Part shown: piece by piece, positions 17,877 to 25,097 of the stretch | Layout: the number at the start of each line of letters is the position of its first letter | Position numbering within the stretch: the first letter of the stretch is position 1 | Assembly: GCF_011947225.1 (NCBI RefSeq) | Contig: NZ_JAATVW010000003.1 | Location: forward strand, 248,001-312,000 | DNA from: Planosporangium flavigriseum | GTDB lineage: Bacteria > Actinomycetota > Actinomycetes > Mycobacteriales > Micromonosporaceae | Direction: 5' to 3' | DNA: 64,000 bases | Translations under genes and position numbers: made by a program | The notes under the pieces: generated by a model | Database searches by the model: none | The model's input: only the letters and a program-made list of their open reading frames with translations | Told to the model about the DNA's origin: nothing

Positions 17877-20096
17877 CTACCCGGCGCGCGAGCCGGCGGC
17901 GGCCAGCACGGCGGCTTCGACGCTCGCCCGCGCGGCCGCGTCGCCCCACTCCCCCACCAGGTAGAACGCGTCGACGGCGTCACCGCCCAGCGTGGAGATC
18001 CGAGCCGCGCGGACCCGCGCACCGGCCACCGCGAGGGCCTGCGCCACCCGGTACAGCAGCCCGGGCGAGTCCATGGCGCGCAGTTCCAGGACGGCCGCGC
18101 CGGTCGCGGGCTGCCAGACGACGCGCGGCGCCGCAGCGTCGGCGGACCGCCGCGCCGCCCGTTCCCGGGCCGCGAGCCGCGCCGCGACGTCCAACCCGCC
18201 CGTAACGGCGCGGCGCAGGTCGCCGGTCAGGGTGCCCGGCGCCGGCTCGCTGCCGTAGCGCGGCTGCACCCCGCACACCACCCGCGCGAGCCCGTCCTGG
18301 GTGGCGACGTCGGCGGCGACGACGTCGAGGCGGTGTAGCGACAGACAGCCGGCCACCGCGGCGAGCAGGCCCGGACGGTCCGTCGCGGTCACCACGACCC
18401 GGTCCTGCGTCACGCGTACGCAGGGAAGCGGGCCGACCGCGATCGGCACGGCGACCGGCGGCGTCCGGGGTATCCGGCCCGTGTCCAGGGCGGTCTCCAC
18501 CCGGTCGACCAACTCGGCGACCAGCCGCCCCTTCCACGACGACCAGGCGGCCGGCCCCGTCGCGGCGGCGTCGGCGCGGGTCAGCGCGTACAGCAGCGCG
18601 AGGGTCCCGGCGTCGCCGACCGCGTCGGCCACCGCTTCGACGGTCACCGGATCCGCCAGGTCCCGGCGGGTCGCGGTCTCCGGCAGGAGCAGGTGCAGGC
18701 GTACGACCCGCTCGACCGTCTGGACGTCGTCGGCCGGTAGCCCGATACGGGCAGCGGCCGTGGCGGCCAGCGGCGCCCCGACCGTGCTGTGGTCACCCGG
18801 CAGGCCCTTGCCGAGGTCGTGCAGCAGCGCGGACAGCATCAGCAGATCCGGGCGGGGCACCTCGCGGGCGTACGCGGCGGCCGCCCGGGCGGTCTCCACG
18901 AGGTGGCGGTCGACGGTGAACCGGTGCACCGGGTTGTGCTGGGGCAGGCTACGTACCCGGGCCCACTCCGGCAGCCACCGGGCGACCAGGCCGTACCGGT
19001 CACACGCCTCCCAGGTCGCCGTCAGCGGATCGCCCGCGCCGAGCAGGGTGAGCAGGGCGTCCCGGGCCGGCGCCGGCCACGGGCTCGGCAGCGGGGAGGA
19101 GAACTCGGCCAGCCATTCCAGGGTCGGCCGGGCGATGGGCAGCCGGGCGCGGGCGGCCGCGGCAGCGACCCGCAGGGCCAGGGTGGGGTCGGGTCGCGGG
19201 GTGACCGCCGCCCGGGCGAGCACGACCTCACCGTTCTGCTCGACGACATCGCGAGCGACGGGAACGCGCTGGACCCGGGCGGGCACGCCCGGCCGCCAGC
19301 GGTCGACCGCCCGCCAGGCGTCGTCGACGGCGTACGCGACGGTCCGGGCGGCGTCCGTCACCCGCCGGAGCGCGTCGTCGCCGTTAGCGAGGTCGAGCAG
19401 GCCGGCCAGTTCGGCCCGGTCCTGGGCGAGCATCCGGTCGGCCCGCCGCCCGGCCACCGTGTGCAACGCGTCGCGGACGTCGAGCAGCCACCGCCGCGCC
19501 GCCCGGACGGCCGGACGGGTCGCGTCAGCCACTCCGGCGTACCCGATCGCACGCAGCACCCCGAGGTCCCGCAGTCCCCCGCGGGCCTCCTTCACGTCGC
19601 CTTCGAGCAGGAAGGCCAGCTCACCGTGGGCGTCCCACCGCTTGTGCGACAGCTCCCGTAGCTCGGGCAGCGCCCGCGCCGCGCCGCGCCGCCACTGCGC
19701 CACGACCCGCTCGCGCAGCCGCGTGAGCAGTCGGGCCTCACCGGCTACCAGCCGCGCGTCCAGCATGCCGAGGGCGGCCTTGAGGTCGGAACCCGCGACG
19801 TCGACCGCCTCGTCGACCGTGCGTACGGAGTGGTCCAACGACAGCCGCGCGTCCCAGATGGGATACCAGAGCTTCTCGGCGACCCGGTCGATCTCGGCGC
19901 TCCCGTCATGCAGCAGGACGAGGTCGAGGTCACCGTGCGGCGCGCACTCCCGGCGGCCGAGCCCGCCCACGGCGACGAGCGCCAGGCCCTCTCCCGTCGG
20001 CAGCAGCGTGGCGAGCCAGTCGTCGAAGGTCGCGGCACGGGCCGCCCGCGCCGCGGCGCCGACGCCGGCGGGCACCTCAATGCCCGCCGACGTCAT
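17877..20096 (-). CDS. glnD: [Protein-PII] nucleotidyltransferase/hydrolase GlnD
   Basis: GlnD modifies the PII protein at Tyr51 according to glutamine level; in Actinobacteria the modification is adenylylation. The start ATG 20096 (MTSAGIEVPA) follows GGGGGAG by about 7 bases. The nucleotidyltransferase motif is GGLGRRECAPHGDLDLVLL, with metal Asp56 and Asp58. The HD domain shows LSALLHDLGKGLPGDHS near residue 430. Two ACT domains follow (about 570-640 and 665-735), the glutamine sensors. At 739 aa it is a little shorter than Proteobacterial GlnD. It lies 20 bp after glnB in the amtB-glnB-glnD operon. Confidence 0.94.
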   Translation of the reverse strand: MTSAGIEVPAGVGAAARAARAATFDDWLATLLPTGEGLALVAVGGLGRRECAPHGDLDLVLLHDGSAEIDRVAEKLWYPIWDARLSLDHSVRTVDEAVDVAGSDLKAALGMLDARLVAGEARLLTRLRERVVAQWRRGAARALPELRELSHKRWDAHGELAFLLEGDVKEARGGLRDLGVLRAIGYAGVADATRPAVRAARRWLLDVRDALHTVAGRRADRMLAQDRAELAGLLDLANGDDALRRVTDAARTVAYAVDDAWRAVDRWRPGVPARVQRVPVARDVVEQNGEVVLARAAVTPRPDPTLALRVAAAAARARLPIARPTLEWLAEFSSPLPSPWPAPARDALLTLLGAGDPLTATWEACDRYGLVARWLPEWARVRSLPQHNPVHRFTVDRHLVETARAAAAYAREVPRPDLLMLSALLHDLGKGLPGDHSTVGAPLAATAAARIGLPADDVQTVERVVRLHLLLPETATRRDLADPVTVEAVADAVGDAGTLALLYALTRADAAATGPAAWSSWKGRLVAELVDRVETALDTGRIPRTPPVAVPIAVGPLPCVRVTQDRVVVTATDRPGLLAAVAGCLSLHRLDVVAADVATQDGLARVVCGVQPRYGSEPAPGTLTGDLRRAVTGGLDVAARLAARERAARRSADAAAPRVVWQPATGAAVLELRAMDSPGLLYRVAQALAVAGARVRAARISTLGGDAVDAFYLVGEWGDAAARASVEAAVLAAAGSRAG

Positions 20097-20116
20097 CACC
20101 ACTCCCCCGGTCTCTT

Positions 20117-20479
<363 letters not shown>

Positions 20480-21844
20480 CTAGCCGGGGATCTTCTCGCC
20501 CGAGCGCTCCGGCTCGGCTTCGTCGACGCGTGGTGCCCTGCTCGCCCCGACACCCGCCAGGGCGAAGGCCCCGCCCGAGCCGGTGGTCGGCGCGAAGTCG
20601 TACGCGCTCTCCGCGTGCTCGGCGGTGTCGATGCCGTCGATCTCGGCCTCCTTCGACACCCGGAACCCGATCGTCTTCTCGATGGCCCAACCGATCGCGT
20701 ACGCGAGGACGAAGGAGTACACCGCGACCGCGGCGACGGCGAGCGCCTGCTTGCCCAACTGCGTGAACCCGCCGCCGTACAGCAGACCCGCGACCCCGCC
20801 GGTGCCGGCGATGAACGGCGCGGCGAGGAAGCCGATGAGCACGGCGCCGAGGGCGCCGCCGACCAGGTGCACGCCGACGACGTCGAGCGAGTCGTCGAAG
20901 CCGAGCCGGTACTTCAGGCCGACGGCCAGGGCACACACGGCACCGGCGATCAGGCCGAGCGCGATGGCGCCGATCGGCTCGACGGTGGCACAGGCCGGGG
21001 TGATCGCGACCAGACCCGCGACGGCGCCGGAGGCACCGCCCAGCGCGGTGGGCCTACCGTCGCGCAGCCACTCCACGATGATCCAGCCAACCAGGGCGGC
21101 ACCGGCAGCGACCTGCGTGTTCATGAATGCGATCGCGGCCAGCCCGTTCGCAGCGAGGGCGGAGCCTGCGTTGAAGCCGAACCAGCCGAACCACAGCAGG
21201 GCGGCACCCAGCAGCACCATCGGTACGTTGTGCGGCTTGAACTTCTCCTTCGGCCAGCCGACCCGCCGGCCGAGCACGAGCACCAGGGCCAGCGCCGCCG
21301 CACCCGCGTTGACGTGCACCGCGGTTCCGCCGGCGAAGTCGAACGCCTTGAGCCCGTCGGCGATCCAGCCGCCGTTGCCACCATCGAAGAAGAAGACCCA
21401 GTGCGCGACCGGGAAGTACACCACCGTGGTCCACACGGCCACGAACAGGATCCACGATCCGAACTTCGCCCGGTCGGCGATGGCGCCGCTGATGAGCGCC
21501 GGCGTGATGATCGCGAACATGAGCTGGAACGCGGCGAACGCCAGCACCGGGATCTTGTCGCCGTCCGCGCCGGTCAGGGCGTCGAACGTGCCCCGCAGGC
21601 CGAACGCGTCGGATCCACCGATCAGACCGTGGAACCTGTCGGTACTGAAGGACAGCGCGTAGCCGTACGCCACCCACAGCACGCTGACCACGCCCATCGC
21701 GGCGAAGTTCATCATGAGCATGTTGAGCACACTCTTGGTTCGCACCATGCCGCCATAGAACAGGGCCAGGCCCGGCGTCATGAGCAGTACGAGCGCGCTC
21801 GAAGCGAGCACCCAGGCGGTGTCGCCGTAGTTGATCGGCGGCAC
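20480..21844 (-). CDS. amtB: Ammonium transporter AmtB
   Basis: This 454 aa membrane channel conducts ammonium/ammonia and has about 11 transmembrane helices. The N-terminus WVLASSALVLLMTPGLALFY and GGMVRTKSVLNMLMMNF are Amt hallmarks. The pore-lining His region reads PVAHWVFFFDGGNGGWI, and the signature DFAGGTAVHVNAGAAALAL follows. The second pore His lies near VGVHLVGGALG. The C-terminal cytosolic tail (about 400-454) would contact PII. GTG start with a strong GAGAGGAGG site. A GlnR-like operator lies 118 bp upstream. Confidence 0.96.
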   Translation of the reverse strand: MPPINYGDTAWVLASSALVLLMTPGLALFYGGMVRTKSVLNMLMMNFAAMGVVSVLWVAYGYALSFSTDRFHGLIGGSDAFGLRGTFDALTGADGDKIPVLAFAAFQLMFAIITPALISGAIADRAKFGSWILFVAVWTTVVYFPVAHWVFFFDGGNGGWIADGLKAFDFAGGTAVHVNAGAAALALVLVLGRRVGWPKEKFKPHNVPMVLLGAALLWFGWFGFNAGSALAANGLAAIAFMNTQVAAGAALVGWIIVEWLRDGRPTALGGASGAVAGLVAITPACATVEPIGAIALGLIAGAVCALAVGLKYRLGFDDSLDVVGVHLVGGALGAVLIGFLAAPFIAGTGGVAGLLYGGGFTQLGKQALAVAAVAVYSFVLAYAIGWAIEKTIGFRVSKEAEIDGIDTAEHAESAYDFAPTTGSGGAFALAGVGASRAPRVDEAEPERSGEKIPG

Positions 21845-21961
21845 GCGGCCTCCTCTCGGTCTGTATTACTGCCTCCCGGCTGGCCTGGGCGACACTGCCC
21901 ACCGTGTTGCCGGATGATCGACAGAATGGCGAACCGCTGTTTCGAGCTTCGGCGCGCTGCA

Positions 21962-21998
21962 GTTTCGGCCAGGTGACCACGTGTTTCGAACGTGTGAA
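21962..21998 (-). promoter_or_regulatory. GlnR-type operator upstream of amtB
   Basis: On the minus strand two copies of the GlnR half-pattern GTnAC-n6-GAAAC lie in tandem: TTCAC-ACGTTC-GAAAC (21998-21983) and GTCAC-CTGGCC-GAAAC (21977-21962), separated by 5 bases. GlnR is the OmpR-type nitrogen regulator of Actinomycetes, and amtB-glnB-glnD is its best-known target. The position 118 bp before the amtB start fits activation. The regulator gene is not in the window. Confidence 0.7.
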
Positions 21999-22015
21999 GG
22001 TTCCGCGCCCGCCGC

Positions 22016-22112
22016 TCCAAGATCCGCGCCCGCCCATCCGCGCCCGCCCGCCCGCCGGCGCGCCCGCCCGCTCGCCCGACAGCGCGCCCGCCCGCTCGCC
22101 CGACGGCGCGCC
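22016..22112. repeat. GC-rich direct repeats
   Basis: Two 14-bp copies of ATCCGCGCCCGCCC (22022-22035 and 22036-22049) are followed by a 24-bp unit (GCGCGCCCGCCCGCTCGCCC plus GACA or GACG) at 22058-22081 and 22082-22105, then a partial third copy. The segment CCAAGATCCGC flanks the array on both sides (22017 and 22111). Confidence 0.75.
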
Positions 22113-22114
22113 AA

Positions 22115-22188
22115 GATCCGCACAGTTTGGGCCAAGTTGCTGCTATCCGCGCCTGGGAAGCAGCAGTTTCCCCAAAACTGCGCGGATC
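22115..22188. repeat. 74-bp imperfect inverted repeat
   Basis: A 30-base left arm (22115-22144, starting GATCCGCACAGTTTGGG) and a 30-base right arm (22159-22188, ending AACTGCGCGGATC) are inverted copies with 24 of 30 positions matching, around a 14-base spacer. It lies 7 bp past the stop of the J-domain gene, so it may act as its terminator, but it lacks a T-run and is much longer than needed. A small non-coding mobile or REP-like element is the alternative. Confidence 0.7.
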
Positions 22189-22195
22189 GAGAGCG

Positions 22196-22876
22196 CTAGA
22201 AGTGCGGCAGGGCGAAGATGTACGCGTCGATGACGACGAAGATCGCCCCGACGGCCACCCCCGCGAGGGCGAGCCGCTTGCCGCGCTGGCCGCGCCGGCG
22301 GATCTGTCCCAGGGCGAGCAGGCCGAGGACGAGCGGAATCGGCGTCCACGTCAGGATCGCCACCACCGAGGCGACGGCCAGGGCGTTCCAGCGTGCAGCG
22401 GGGGCGGGTCCGTCCGCGGCCCCGGCGTACCCGCCGTCGGCAGCGACCGGCGACTGATCCTCGCCGGGCCCACCAGAACCAGGCGCGCCAGAGCTGGACC
22501 CACCAGAGCCGGCCGCACCACGCGGGGTGACGAAGGTCGGGCGGATCGGCTGCGCGGGGCCAGCACCGGCACCGTCCGCCGGATTGGGCGAGGTCGGCTG
22601 GCGCTCCTCACCAGGGAACCCGGCGAACATCGTCCGCCGGGACTCCTCGTCGCGCAGGTCGTAGTAGCCGATCCGGCGCAGCGGGTCGAGCAGGAGGTCC
22701 GCCGCCGCGGTGATCAACTGGGTCCGGCGCAGATCACCGCTGGGCAGATCGGGGTGGTACTTGCGCAGCAGCCGTTTACGGGCGGCGCGGATGTCCGCGT
22801 CGGACGCCCCGGACGGCAGTTCGAGGATCTCGTACGGGTCCCGCCCACCGAGTTCGCCGAAGGAGGGGCGGCTCAC
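22196..22876 (-). CDS. J-domain protein with C-terminal two-helix membrane domain (DUF4190-like)
   Basis: The N-terminal 65 residues form a J domain: DPYEILELPSGASDADIRAA, then KRLLRKYHPDLP with the HPD tripeptide at 41-43 that stimulates Hsp70 ATPase. The middle (about 75-155) is a Gly/Ser/Pro/Ala-rich linker. The C-terminus (about 160-226) has two hydrophobic helices around GLLALGQIRRRGQRGKRLA, the pattern of DUF4190 membrane proteins. The protein would thus place a J domain at the inner face of the membrane. No dnaK is near. It is downstream of the APH-like gene on the same strand. Confidence 0.85.
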   Translation of the reverse strand: MSRPSFGELGGRDPYEILELPSGASDADIRAARKRLLRKYHPDLPSGDLRRTQLITAAADLLLDPLRRIGYYDLRDEESRRTMFAGFPGEERQPTSPNPADGAGAGPAQPIRPTFVTPRGAAGSGGSSSGAPGSGGPGEDQSPVAADGGYAGAADGPAPAARWNALAVASVVAILTWTPIPLVLGLLALGQIRRRGQRGKRLALAGVAVGAIFVVIDAYIFALPHF

Positions 22877-22951
22877 GAACCTTCGACCTCCCTCTCCGGT
22901 GGACTTCCGACCGCGGGCACCCTACCGCAGCCGTACCGGGACGGGGGATAG

Positions 22952-23740
22952 TCAGCGCAGCGCGTGCTCCAGCAGCTGCCACTCCTGATCGATGAGCCGC
23001 AGGTCACGCATGGGCCGGCGAAGGTGGCCCTTGTGCACGATGCGGACGAACGCGGGCTCGCCGGCGGCGGCCATCCGCCGGATGCCCTCGACGTGGTCGA
23101 CGATCCGCTTGCGGACCGTCCGGACCAGCCGCTGGCGGTCCCGCGGGGTCAGGCCGTACGCGTCGGCGAACAGCCGCAGCCGCCGCGGTCGGTTCGGCTG
23201 CTTCCAGCCAAGGGTGTACGAGTCGCGGTCGGAGAAGAGCGGCACCCAGGTCCACGCCGCGTACGCCACGTCGTAGATGCGGGAGCCGGGCGAGGCGAGG
23301 TCGAAATCGATCAGGGCGAGCGTGCCGTCCGGGCGCCAGATGACGTTGTGCGGGGCGGCGTCGTGGTGGCAAATCACCTCGGTGTCGGGCGGCGGTGGCC
23401 CGAACGAGCGCCAGACGGCGCCGGGGGCCGGGCGGAACCCGTACTGCGCGTCGTGGAACATCCGCAGCATCGTCGCGACGGTCACCAGCGCCTGATCGGT
23501 GACCCAGTGCGGGGCCAGCGGGTACTCTCCACACTCTCCGTCGAGGTAGGAGAGCACCTCGCGGCCCCGCTCGTCGATGCCGAGGGCCTGCGGCGAGCCG
23601 GTGAAGCCGACATGCTCCAGGTGGCGCAGCAGGGCGTGCACGGACGGCGTCCACGGCCCGGCGTTGCGGCGGACCGTCGCGCCGACCCGTACGACTGTCG
23701 AGGTGGTCCCGCCCAGGAGCGGGATCTCCTGTTGTGGCAC
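22952..23740 (-). CDS. APH-family phosphotransferase
   Basis: This is a protein-kinase-like phosphotransferase of the aminoglycoside phosphotransferase (APH/choline kinase) superfamily. The catalytic loop is VICHHDAAPHNVIW (Asp, Asn) and the metal-binding DFG equivalent is LALIDFDLA. An N-terminal lobe with TSTVVRVGATVRR replaces the normal glycine loop and Lys strand in reduced form. I prefer GTG 23740 (MPQQEIPLLGG), with GAGGAG 9 bases upstream, over ATGs at 23770 and 23779 that lack one. The length is 262 aa. The substrate is unknown; such genes are often annotated as antibiotic resistance without evidence. Confidence 0.8.
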   Translation of the reverse strand: MPQQEIPLLGGTTSTVVRVGATVRRNAGPWTPSVHALLRHLEHVGFTGSPQALGIDERGREVLSYLDGECGEYPLAPHWVTDQALVTVATMLRMFHDAQYGFRPAPGAVWRSFGPPPPDTEVICHHDAAPHNVIWRPDGTLALIDFDLASPGSRIYDVAYAAWTWVPLFSDRDSYTLGWKQPNRPRRLRLFADAYGLTPRDRQRLVRTVRKRIVDHVEGIRRMAAAGEPAFVRIVHKGHLRRPMRDLRLIDQEWQLLEHALR

Positions 23741-23828
23741 TGCCGCCGACTCCTCGGATGTTCTCCGCATAGCGGTCATTCTGGGACAAAACAGCGCACT
23801 CGTCCACGCCGAAGCGCGCCGAGCGCAG

Positions 23829-25097
23829 CTACGCCTCTCCCCCCAGCAACGCGTCGACAAACTGCGCCGGCTCGAACGGGGCCAGGTCGTCGGCGCCCTC
23901 GCCCAGGCCGACCAGCTTGACCGGGATGCCGAGCTTCTTCTGTACCGCGATCACGATGCCGCCCTTGGCGGTGCCGTCCAGCTTGGTCAGCGCCACCCCG
24001 GTCACGTCCACCACCTCGGTGAACACGCGCGCCTGCTCAAGGCCGTTCTGCCCGGTCGTGGCGTCGAGGATCAGCAGCGTCTCGTCGACCGGCCCGTGCT
24101 TCTCGACGACCCGCTTCACCTTGCCCAGCTCGTCCATCAGCCCGACCTTGTTCTGCAGCCGACCGGCCGTGTCGATCACGACGGTGTCGACGTTGGTCTC
24201 GATGCCCCGCCGGACCGAATCGAACGCGACGGCGGCCGGGTCGCCGCCCTCGGGACCGCGTACGACCTCGGCACCGACCCGACCGGCCCACGTGGCGAGC
24301 TGATCCGCCGCCGCCGCACGGAACGTGTCGGCCGCGCCGAGCAGCACCGAGTGACCATCCGCGACCAGTACCCGCGCAATCTTTCCGCAGGTGGTGGTCT
24401 TACCGGCGCCGTTGACGCCGACGACGAGCACGACGGCTGGCCGGCCGTCGTGCGGGGAGGCCTTCAGCGAGCGATCCATGTCCGGGCTGAGCGCCGTCGT
24501 CAGCTCGTCGGCCAGCAGCTTGCGCAGTTCGCTCGCTGACGACGTACCGAGCACCCGGGCCCGCTCGCGCAGCCGCCCGACGATCTCGGTGGTCGCGGCG
24601 ACGCCCACGTCAGCGCCGATGAGCGTCTCCTCGACCTCCTCCCAGGTGTCGTCGTCGAGCCGATCGCGCGACAGCAGGGCGAGCAGGCTCTTACCGAAGA
24701 CGTTCTGCGAACGGGACAGGCGCCCGCGCAGGCGGACCAGCCGGCCGGCGGTCGGCGCGGGCGTCTCGATCGGGGGCACGACCTCGACCGGCACCTCCAC
24801 CGGCGGTACCGGCGGGGCGGGCGGAGCGGCCTCGACCGGCGGGACGGGCGGAGCGGCCTCGATCGGCGGAGCAGCTTCGACCGGCGGCGCCGGCCGCTCG
24901 ACGGGCGGCGCGGTCTCCACCGGCGGCCCCCGCCGCTCCGGCGGCGCCTCGACGGTCGGTGTCACCGCCGCCGGACGCTGCGGAGCCTCCGGCGGCTGCG
25001 GCGGCGCGGGTGGCCTGCGGAAGCGAGGCGCGAGCAAGACGGCTGCGCCCGCCAGCAGCAGGACGAGCAGGACCAGGCCTATGGCAACGTACTCCAT
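23829..25097 (-). CDS. ftsY: SRP receptor FtsY
   Basis: FtsY is the membrane-associated GTPase receptor for Ffh. The 422 aa protein starts with a membrane-inserting segment (about residues 4-24), then a Pro/Ala/Glu-rich linker (about 30-110) with repeated PPVEAAPP units. The NG domain follows, with P-loop VGVNGAGKTTTCGKIA, DTAGRLQNKVGLMDEL, LTKLDGTAKGGI and the closing GEGADDLAPF. An N-terminal helix is usual for actinobacterial FtsY. It is 88 bp downstream of the APH-like gene's far side and shares strand with smc, the usual smc-ftsY association, here interrupted by phoD. Confidence 0.96.
   Translation of the reverse strand: MEYVAIGLVLLVLLLAGAAVLLAPRFRRPPAPPQPPEAPQRPAAVTPTVEAPPERRGPPVETAPPVERPAPPVEAAPPIEAAPPVPPVEAAPPAPPVPPVEVPVEVVPPIETPAPTAGRLVRLRGRLSRSQNVFGKSLLALLSRDRLDDDTWEEVEETLIGADVGVAATTEIVGRLRERARVLGTSSASELRKLLADELTTALSPDMDRSLKASPHDGRPAVVLVVGVNGAGKTTTCGKIARVLVADGHSVLLGAADTFRAAAADQLATWAGRVGAEVVRGPEGGDPAAVAFDSVRRGIETNVDTVVIDTAGRLQNKVGLMDELGKVKRVVEKHGPVDETLLILDATTGQNGLEQARVFTEVVDVTGVALTKLDGTAKGGIVIAVQKKLGIPVKLVGLGEGADDLAPFEPAQFVDALLGGEA

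Follow-up and report, generated by a model that had tools for sequence, protein, structure and literature searches.

The ERIC sequences of enterobacteria are imperfect palindromes of about 100 bp with conserved sequence, which occur between genes in many copies and for which we know of no transposase. The Correia and RUP elements are named as MITEs derived from insertion sequences (IS) (PMC2817692), and REP sequences are known as targets of IS (PMC1525189). At the transcript level, the 3′ ends mapped in S. clavuligerus include a class that lacks U (PMC8269248). Here we analyzed a hairpin in a stretch of 64,000 nucleotides of Planosporangium flavigriseum DNA, in the following called the window. 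The repeat family to which it belongs was not described in the literature covered by our search, including the accessible parts of PMC5765111, PMC4182475, and PMC3364876; subscription titles were mostly outside the scope of this search, and the repeat may be in print elsewhere.

The hairpin between the J-domain gene and amtB

The genome containing the window comprises 5.72 Mb in 85 contigs. The local genes are all located on the minus strand and encode P-II, the ammonium transporter AmtB, a J-domain/DUF4190 protein, and a phosphotransferase-like protein. The region between the J-domain gene and amtB contains a hairpin and a GC-rich array, with the following features:

22196 to 22876, minus strand: J-domain gene (DnaJ domain and DUF4190; ORF and Pfam)
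22112 to 22192, no strand assigned: copy of the dispersed palindromic element (CAAGATCC...GGATC, 81 model positions; cmsearch and fold)
about 22113 to 22145 and about 22158 to 22190: arms of the element, with the loop at about 22146 to 22157
22018 to 22111, no strand assigned: GC tandem array between two CCAAGATCCGC copies (14-bp unit twice, 24-bp unit about three times)
22017 to 22029, plus strand: extra copy of the terminal motif of the element, CCAAGATCCGCGC (from the sequence)
21845 to 22013, minus strand: amtB upstream region, outside the element
20480 to 21844, minus strand: amtB (ammonium transporter; ORF; Pfam PF00909, E 4e-124)

The element is separated by 3 bp from the stop codon of the J-domain gene and by 267 bp from the start codon of amtB, and both flanking genes point in the same direction. 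As read from the sequences, the amtB upstream region contains a TTCACACG..GAAACA block 3′ of the array on the minus strand. The same block is present 3′ of the gene-end hairpin in all three genus mates (3/3), where it served as boundary.

An inverted repeat had been predicted at this site, and its arms (22115–22144 and 22159–22188) indeed agree at 24 of 30 positions. Its extent had to be slightly enlarged beyond the arms first marked, as the family alignment sets the element at 22112–22192. Searches with cmsearch gave two matches at this copy, 22112–22192 with 88.8 bits and 22113–22190 with 63.4 bits. The 81-nt hairpin had a predicted RNA folding energy of -49.5 kcal/mol compared to -32.0 kcal/mol (sd 3.2) in dinucleotide shuffles (n = 200), corresponding to a z-score of -5.4, and the opposite strand folded as DNA had a z-score of -4.6. 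The structure of the region exceeds chance, as none of the 200 shuffles folded as well and none of 1000 first-order Markov surrogates of the array reached its period-24 score of 32. No Rfam 15 family matched positions 20000–24000 at the gathering score, and a simple terminator scan of positions 21800–22400 found no terminator-like site, the hairpin being without a T-run after the stem.

A repeat family with paired arms

The original prediction considered a dispersed element, and BLASTN of positions 22010–22190 did reveal multiple copies, with 15 rows at 9 distinct places in the same genome. A first covariance model built from 9 copies gave 32 rows in this genome at 16 places, of which 14 were strong and 2 weak. 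The element occurs in every genome of the genus (4/4), with 20, 17, and 48 rows, both strands counted, in the genus mates G001, G002, and G003, respectively. For the analysis of gene context, 57 copies were retrieved from the genus, with some weaker matches left out. In the alignments the element ends with CAAGATCC...GGATCTTG, and its first and last 12 bp are conserved and form inverted repeats, as do the terminal inverted repeats of MITEs. In the genome containing the window, we counted the end motif CAAGATCCGCGC 26 times and the reversed word not once. The length was 78 nt in 86 of 98 listed copies, a value somewhat favored by the search patterns and the model. The element is a non-coding palindromic repeat of Planosporangium and Micromonospora of about 78–81 bp with the ends CAAGATCCGCGCA...TGCGCGGATCTTG. 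It is present in many copies per genome and outside genes, as is characteristic of dispersed intergenic palindromic repeats, and the window hairpin is best read as an ERIC/REP-like repeat in the broad sense.

Various other forms were seen beside the listed copies. Among 20 places with CAAGATCCGCGC outside these copies in two genomes, some were coding as judged by eye, some were shortened or altered elements, and five belonged to another type of hairpin. This second type, GATCTTGGACAC...GTGTCCAAGATCCGCGC, was found at L184, L187, L193, L199, and L200, is intergenic by eye, and has the word CCAAGATC in common with the element. Mini forms of 40 nt consisting only of the outer arms occur at L076:2471-2510, L116:2547-2586, and L250, and two hairpins of G002 (L100:2559-2638 and L106:2477-2556) have similar CAAGATC...GATC ends and an unrelated interior (GGTCTGCGTTACTGAGG).

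To define the distribution of the element, we used sequence patterns and a further model. A GTDB-wide scan with AAGATCCGCGCA-N43-60-TGCGCGGATCTT, which may leave out the own genome of the window or very near ones, found 57 stretches, all in records of Micromonospora, Planosporangium, or a MAG labeled Dactylosporangium. With an exact pattern for the subtype of the window genome, no stretch was found in the species genomes, from which the own or very near genomes are possibly left out. A looser exact-end pattern was present in 54 of 354 Micromonosporaceae genomes, all belonging to Planosporangium or Micromonospora (2 of 44 genera), and the reversed pattern in none. A second covariance model, built from 82 copies, was run on 80 genomes selected so that each of the 44 genera was represented; at E 1e-5 it matched in 24 of these genomes, which belong to 12 genera. 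The copy number varies between genomes, and the counts per genome with this model are lower bounds, because at most 59 candidates were scored in each. In genera other than these two, the hairpins of 67–81 nt have different interiors and often agree in an AAGATC- or ATGATC-like end, an agreement that is partly selected for because the model includes the ends; in two genera (G104 and G086) the model matches are without these ends. No element was found in viral contigs with the exact pattern or in plasmids and phages by blastn of the window copy. In a genome of another genus, G078, we observed near-perfect 81-nt palindromes with AAGATC ends and matching arm variants at gene ends (L307–L313, L286, L296, and L302).

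Pairing of the arms was analyzed in an alignment of 82 copies, obtained from the 98 listed copies after 16 had been left out; the list itself omits 13 odd Planosporangium copies with other interiors or of mini or distorted form and 9 Micromonospora copies of L174–L181. In total, 84.2% of the cells were paired. We counted 294 double-change cells compared to a mean of 141 in shuffles and 71–98 in slid controls, a total that does not equal the number of independent events because the copies are related and fall into subfamilies. The covariation score was 0.258 versus 0.132 in shuffles, and in none of 500 shuffles was either the score or the number of double changes reached. At a single orthologous Micromonospora locus, for which only the 12 elements of exactly 78 nt were counted after 22 loci had been tried, the outer and inner blocks were nearly invariant and compensatory changes were few. 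Mismatches persisted here, namely C-T at pair 13/66 and C-C at pair 25/54, each in 8 of the 12 elements. Covariation is strong across the family and weak at this one locus; the family has preserved its overall stem, whether or not by stepwise compensation.

Quasi-palindrome template switching during replication yields matched changes on both arms, and this process rather than selection for an RNA stem might have caused the covariation. Such an origin concerns the covariation only and is compatible with all readings of function considered below. It would account for the near-perfect G078 palindromes with their matched arm variants and for the persistent mismatches at the orthologous locus, but leaves the gene-end bias and the near-fixed length of 78 nt in 86/98 copies unexplained. 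We regard template switching within the palindrome as a fair alternative for the source of the arm matching, possible rather than probable.

Gene ends, turnover of sites, and a probable role in transcripts

The position of the copies was determined relative to genes called with a simple and crude codon-score caller. None of the 57 Planosporangium copies from four genomes was called inside a gene, and a few extended by at most 25 nt into the called end of a gene. Convergent genes flanked 28 copies, tandem genes 22, and divergent genes 5, with 2 copies left unassigned, whereas the other gaps in the same loci (n = 164) comprised 23 convergent, 98 tandem, and 43 divergent ones; for those of ≥ 80 bp (n = 89), the numbers were 4, 47, and 38, respectively. 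The convergent excess of 28/55 assigned copies versus 23/164 for all other gaps corresponds to a Fisher p of 1.5e-7. A gene 3′ end adjoins 51 of the 57 copies, at a distance of ≤ 50 nt in 45 cases, and in Micromonospora 54 of 63 copies, with ≤ 50 nt in 31 cases. The 63 Micromonospora copies were convergent (20), tandem (21), divergent (3), or lacked a called neighbor on one side (19). Among the copies retrieved from other genomes, 28 were viewed: 7 of 10 in G078 were convergent with both stop codons 4–18 nt away and the other 3 tandem, and of the 18 copies viewed in additional genera and in other Micromonospora, 11 were convergent, 4 tandem, and 3 unassigned. On reading of the 57 copies, without a formal test, the orientation of the element relative to the genes followed no consistent pattern.

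Apart from the window copy, the copies adjoin many different genes. As a separate observation, genes for an AbiEi_1/REase_MTES_1575-like protein, with the REase_MTES_1575 match scoring under its cut-off, are found next to 13 copies of the element (L151:324-1292, L180, L016, L082, L099, L137, and L149). With this query, 13 of 219 neighbor entries matched, 12 strongly and one weakly, compared to 1 of 466 background proteins; the 13 entries correspond to 11 genes, because two genes located between two copies were counted twice. Several of these neighbors represent orthologous Micromonospora loci, and in L151 and L180 a single gene of this type is flanked by two copies.

The J-domain-to-amtB interval of G001, G002, and G003 is without the element, and each of the three genomes has a different hairpin directly after the same stop codon. 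According to raw, unshuffled minimum free energies, the hairpin is short in G003 (-14.9 kcal/mol), long with ATGATC...GATCAT ends in G002 (-52.6 kcal/mol; L206:210-310), and begins in the stop codon in G001 (-38.4 kcal/mol). At the window site, a hairpin appears to persist while its sequence family changes. A plain terminator, conserved as a single copy at this locus in all relatives, had been named in the original prediction as the opposite outcome, and an element specific for amtB regulation is a related explanation. A location 3 bp behind a stop codon and in front of amtB would fit both, but the element is multi-copy, adjoins many different genes, and is missing at this locus in the three genus mates. 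The plain single-copy terminator was ruled out on these grounds, and an explanation of this kind is almost certainly wrong.

Presence and absence of the element were also followed at an orthologous locus of M. saelicesensis, which was compared over 160 Micromonospora genomes. Fifty loci were read, and since these were the 30 best matches plus 20 chosen by hand, the shares are not those of the genus. The element was present in full or diverged form in 19, and one locus each had a 40-nt mini form, a single end, and a copy split in the loop. Another GC-rich hairpin was found in 10 loci and a repeat-rich spacer in one, and the remaining 17 had only a short spacer of ≤ 58 nt between the aligned flanks. 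Because so many relatives have only the short spacer, the element is dispensable at this locus. The copy split in the loop (L282:503-1627, G200) is interrupted by an IS of the IS30 family (transposase NF033563, E 4e-72).

With respect to function, the element resembles an intrinsic terminator in being a GC-rich stem-loop at gene 3′ ends, but lacks the U-rich tract after the stem. The repeat is situated mostly at gene 3′ ends, and there most often between convergent genes. In the mechanism we propose, it would form a long stem-loop that ends or protects transcripts arriving from either side in the manner of an I-shaped terminator without U-tract. The window copy is the present occupant of the site behind the J-domain gene, with another hairpin in each genus mate. 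The element most probably works as such a U-less I-shaped terminator or as a 3′-end stabilizer usable from both sides. The earlier idea of a long hairpin acting in both transcripts agrees with the location of the family at gene ends and between convergent genes; the two neighbors of the window copy, however, are transcribed in the same direction.

Alternatively, the element might be a neutral or selfish dispersed repeat that inserts anywhere outside genes and whose promoter-near copies are lost by selection, in which case the gene-end bias would be uninformative on termination. This would be consistent with its dispensability at the Micromonospora locus (only a short spacer in 17 of 50 loci viewed), its absence from the window locus in three genus mates, and the variable copy number. 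However, convergent copies exceed the share of convergent gaps (28/55 versus 23/164, p 1.5e-7), the G078 hairpin lies within 4–18 nt of both stops in 7/10 copies, and a different hairpin occupies the window site in each genus mate, which makes a neutral or selfish repeat doubtful, although worth serious consideration. As proposed for some BIMEs, the element might also act at the DNA level rather than as an RNA signal, either as a cruciform or, between convergent genes, as a site for a protein or for topology. The palindromic nature, the lack of a consistent orientation to genes on reading, and the folding of single-stranded DNA are in line with this explanation, as is the frequent location at places where supercoiling driven by transcription is expected to converge. 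For the conserved ends, however, a known binder would be needed, and tandem pairs are also common (22/57); we consider a DNA-level site quite improbable.

Possible mobility, adjacent arrays, and comparison with known repeats

Visual inspection of the flanks of 67 listed copies and of 10 G078 copies, and of filled and empty sites at one locus, revealed no target-site duplication. When Y1 transposases were searched for, the genome containing the window gave one match; since the gene adjoins a tnpB with OrfB_IS605 and Cas12f1-like TNB domains, it looks like an IS605-type tnpA and not a RAYT gene. In 10 other element-bearing genomes, two Y1 transposases were present in G002 and none in the other nine, and none was found in the seven Micromonospora carriers searched (0/7), three of which are single contigs. 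For the Micromonospora carriers tested, which have no Y1 transposase, we rejected mobility by RAYT/REPIN. Because no target duplication was seen and 7/7 Micromonospora carriers lack Y1, the element is not a RAYT-linked REP. The GTAG/GTGG head that precedes the hairpin in REPs is absent, the ends being CAAGATCC...GGATCTTG, and when 20 end motifs lying apart from the listed copies of two genomes were inspected by eye, none belonged to a parent IS with the same ends. The assumption that the element had hopped by means of a transposase was not borne out, given the missing target duplications, the lack of Y1 in 9 of 10 other carriers, and the lack of an autonomous partner in these searches. The designation REP/MITE-like holds broadly, for a palindromic repeat that is dispersed between genes, has conserved ends, and is missing at the orthologous site of three genus mates, but not in the sense of REP/RAYT or, as far as seen, of target duplication. 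We infer that the copies were spread by a dedicated mechanism.

The GC array is located on the amtB side of the hairpin. The repeats originally noticed here were recovered: the 14-bp repeat ATCCGCGCCCGCCC is present twice (22022–22035 and 22036–22049), the 24-bp repeat as an exact 23-bp repeat with period 24 (22058–22080 and 22082–22104), and CCAAGATCCGC flanks the array (22017–22027 and 22111–22121), its second copy overlapping the left end of the element except for its first base. TRF reported 3.0 copies of a 24-bp unit at 22041–22112. The copy of the element's own end starts 94 nt outside the element and is followed by two kinds of repeat unit. In the family, a copy of the element's own 12-bp end was present outside the element in 25 of 219 flanks and missing from 194, compared to 4 of 219 flanks for the reverse-complement word and 2 of 203 for sequence 400–550 nt away, with six loci skipped in the flank count. 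Deviant letters of the element end were repeated in the flank copy at L009, L104, and L083, and overall 20 of 31 variant positions were common to both. Tandem arrays were present in 35 of 99 spacers beside copies versus 27 of 204 control gaps (Fisher p 1.6e-5).

The window array follows this family-wide pattern. It looks like a local by-product and not like part of a mobile unit, and it probably consists of local duplications adjoining the end of the element. Replication might stall at the hairpin, and slippage or re-priming might then duplicate the outer element end together with its flank and so generate the array; slippage or re-priming at stalled replication is the most likely origin. In our preferred joint reading, to which we assign a probability of roughly 0.6, a dispersed repeat supplies bidirectional 3′-end hairpins, and the adjacent array arose by slippage or re-priming. 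More speculatively, a superfamily of hairpins of 67–81 nt with AAGATC-like ends might serve the Micromonosporaceae as plug-in terminators, which would spread between gene ends without a RAYT-type transposase or target duplication, replace older 3′-end hairpins at the same site, keep their arms matched while copying, and seed adjacent tandem arrays; this extension is tentative.

If the terminator role is true, a dispersed repeat shapes the 3′ ends of many genes in a family of antibiotic-producing bacteria, the turnover of terminators between species can be followed directly, site by site, and actinomycete engineering gains a set of bidirectional terminators ready for use. How a hairpin repeat spreads without a recognized transposase is a testable question, and arrays seeded by hairpin ends would be a natural record of replication slippage at palindromes.

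Among the described systems, REP/BIME sequences with RAYT resemble the element as extragenic palindromes in many copies (PMC2817692), and the role of REPs as IS targets has a counterpart in the IS30 insertion in one loop; in contrast to the REP heads described in PMC2817692, the element has no GTAG-type head, and 9/10 other carriers have no Y1 transposase. With MITEs such as Correia and RUP it shares the short, non-coding, and intergenic nature and the inverted-repeat ends, but here no target-site duplication was seen and no parent IS with these ends was present in the places inspected. The U-less I-shaped terminators of GC-rich actinobacteria likewise are GC-rich stems at 3′ ends without U-tract; these, however, are described by structure (PMC8269248), whereas the element is a family of repeats defined by sequence, has conserved ends, and exceeds in length the stretches of 40 nt that were folded in that study. 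ERIC is similar in being an imperfect palindrome that is intergenic, multi-copy, conserved in sequence, and without known transposase. The element differs from ERIC in host group and sequence, in its length of about 78 bp, in its very variable middle stems and genus-specific interiors, and in the frequent arrays beside its ends.
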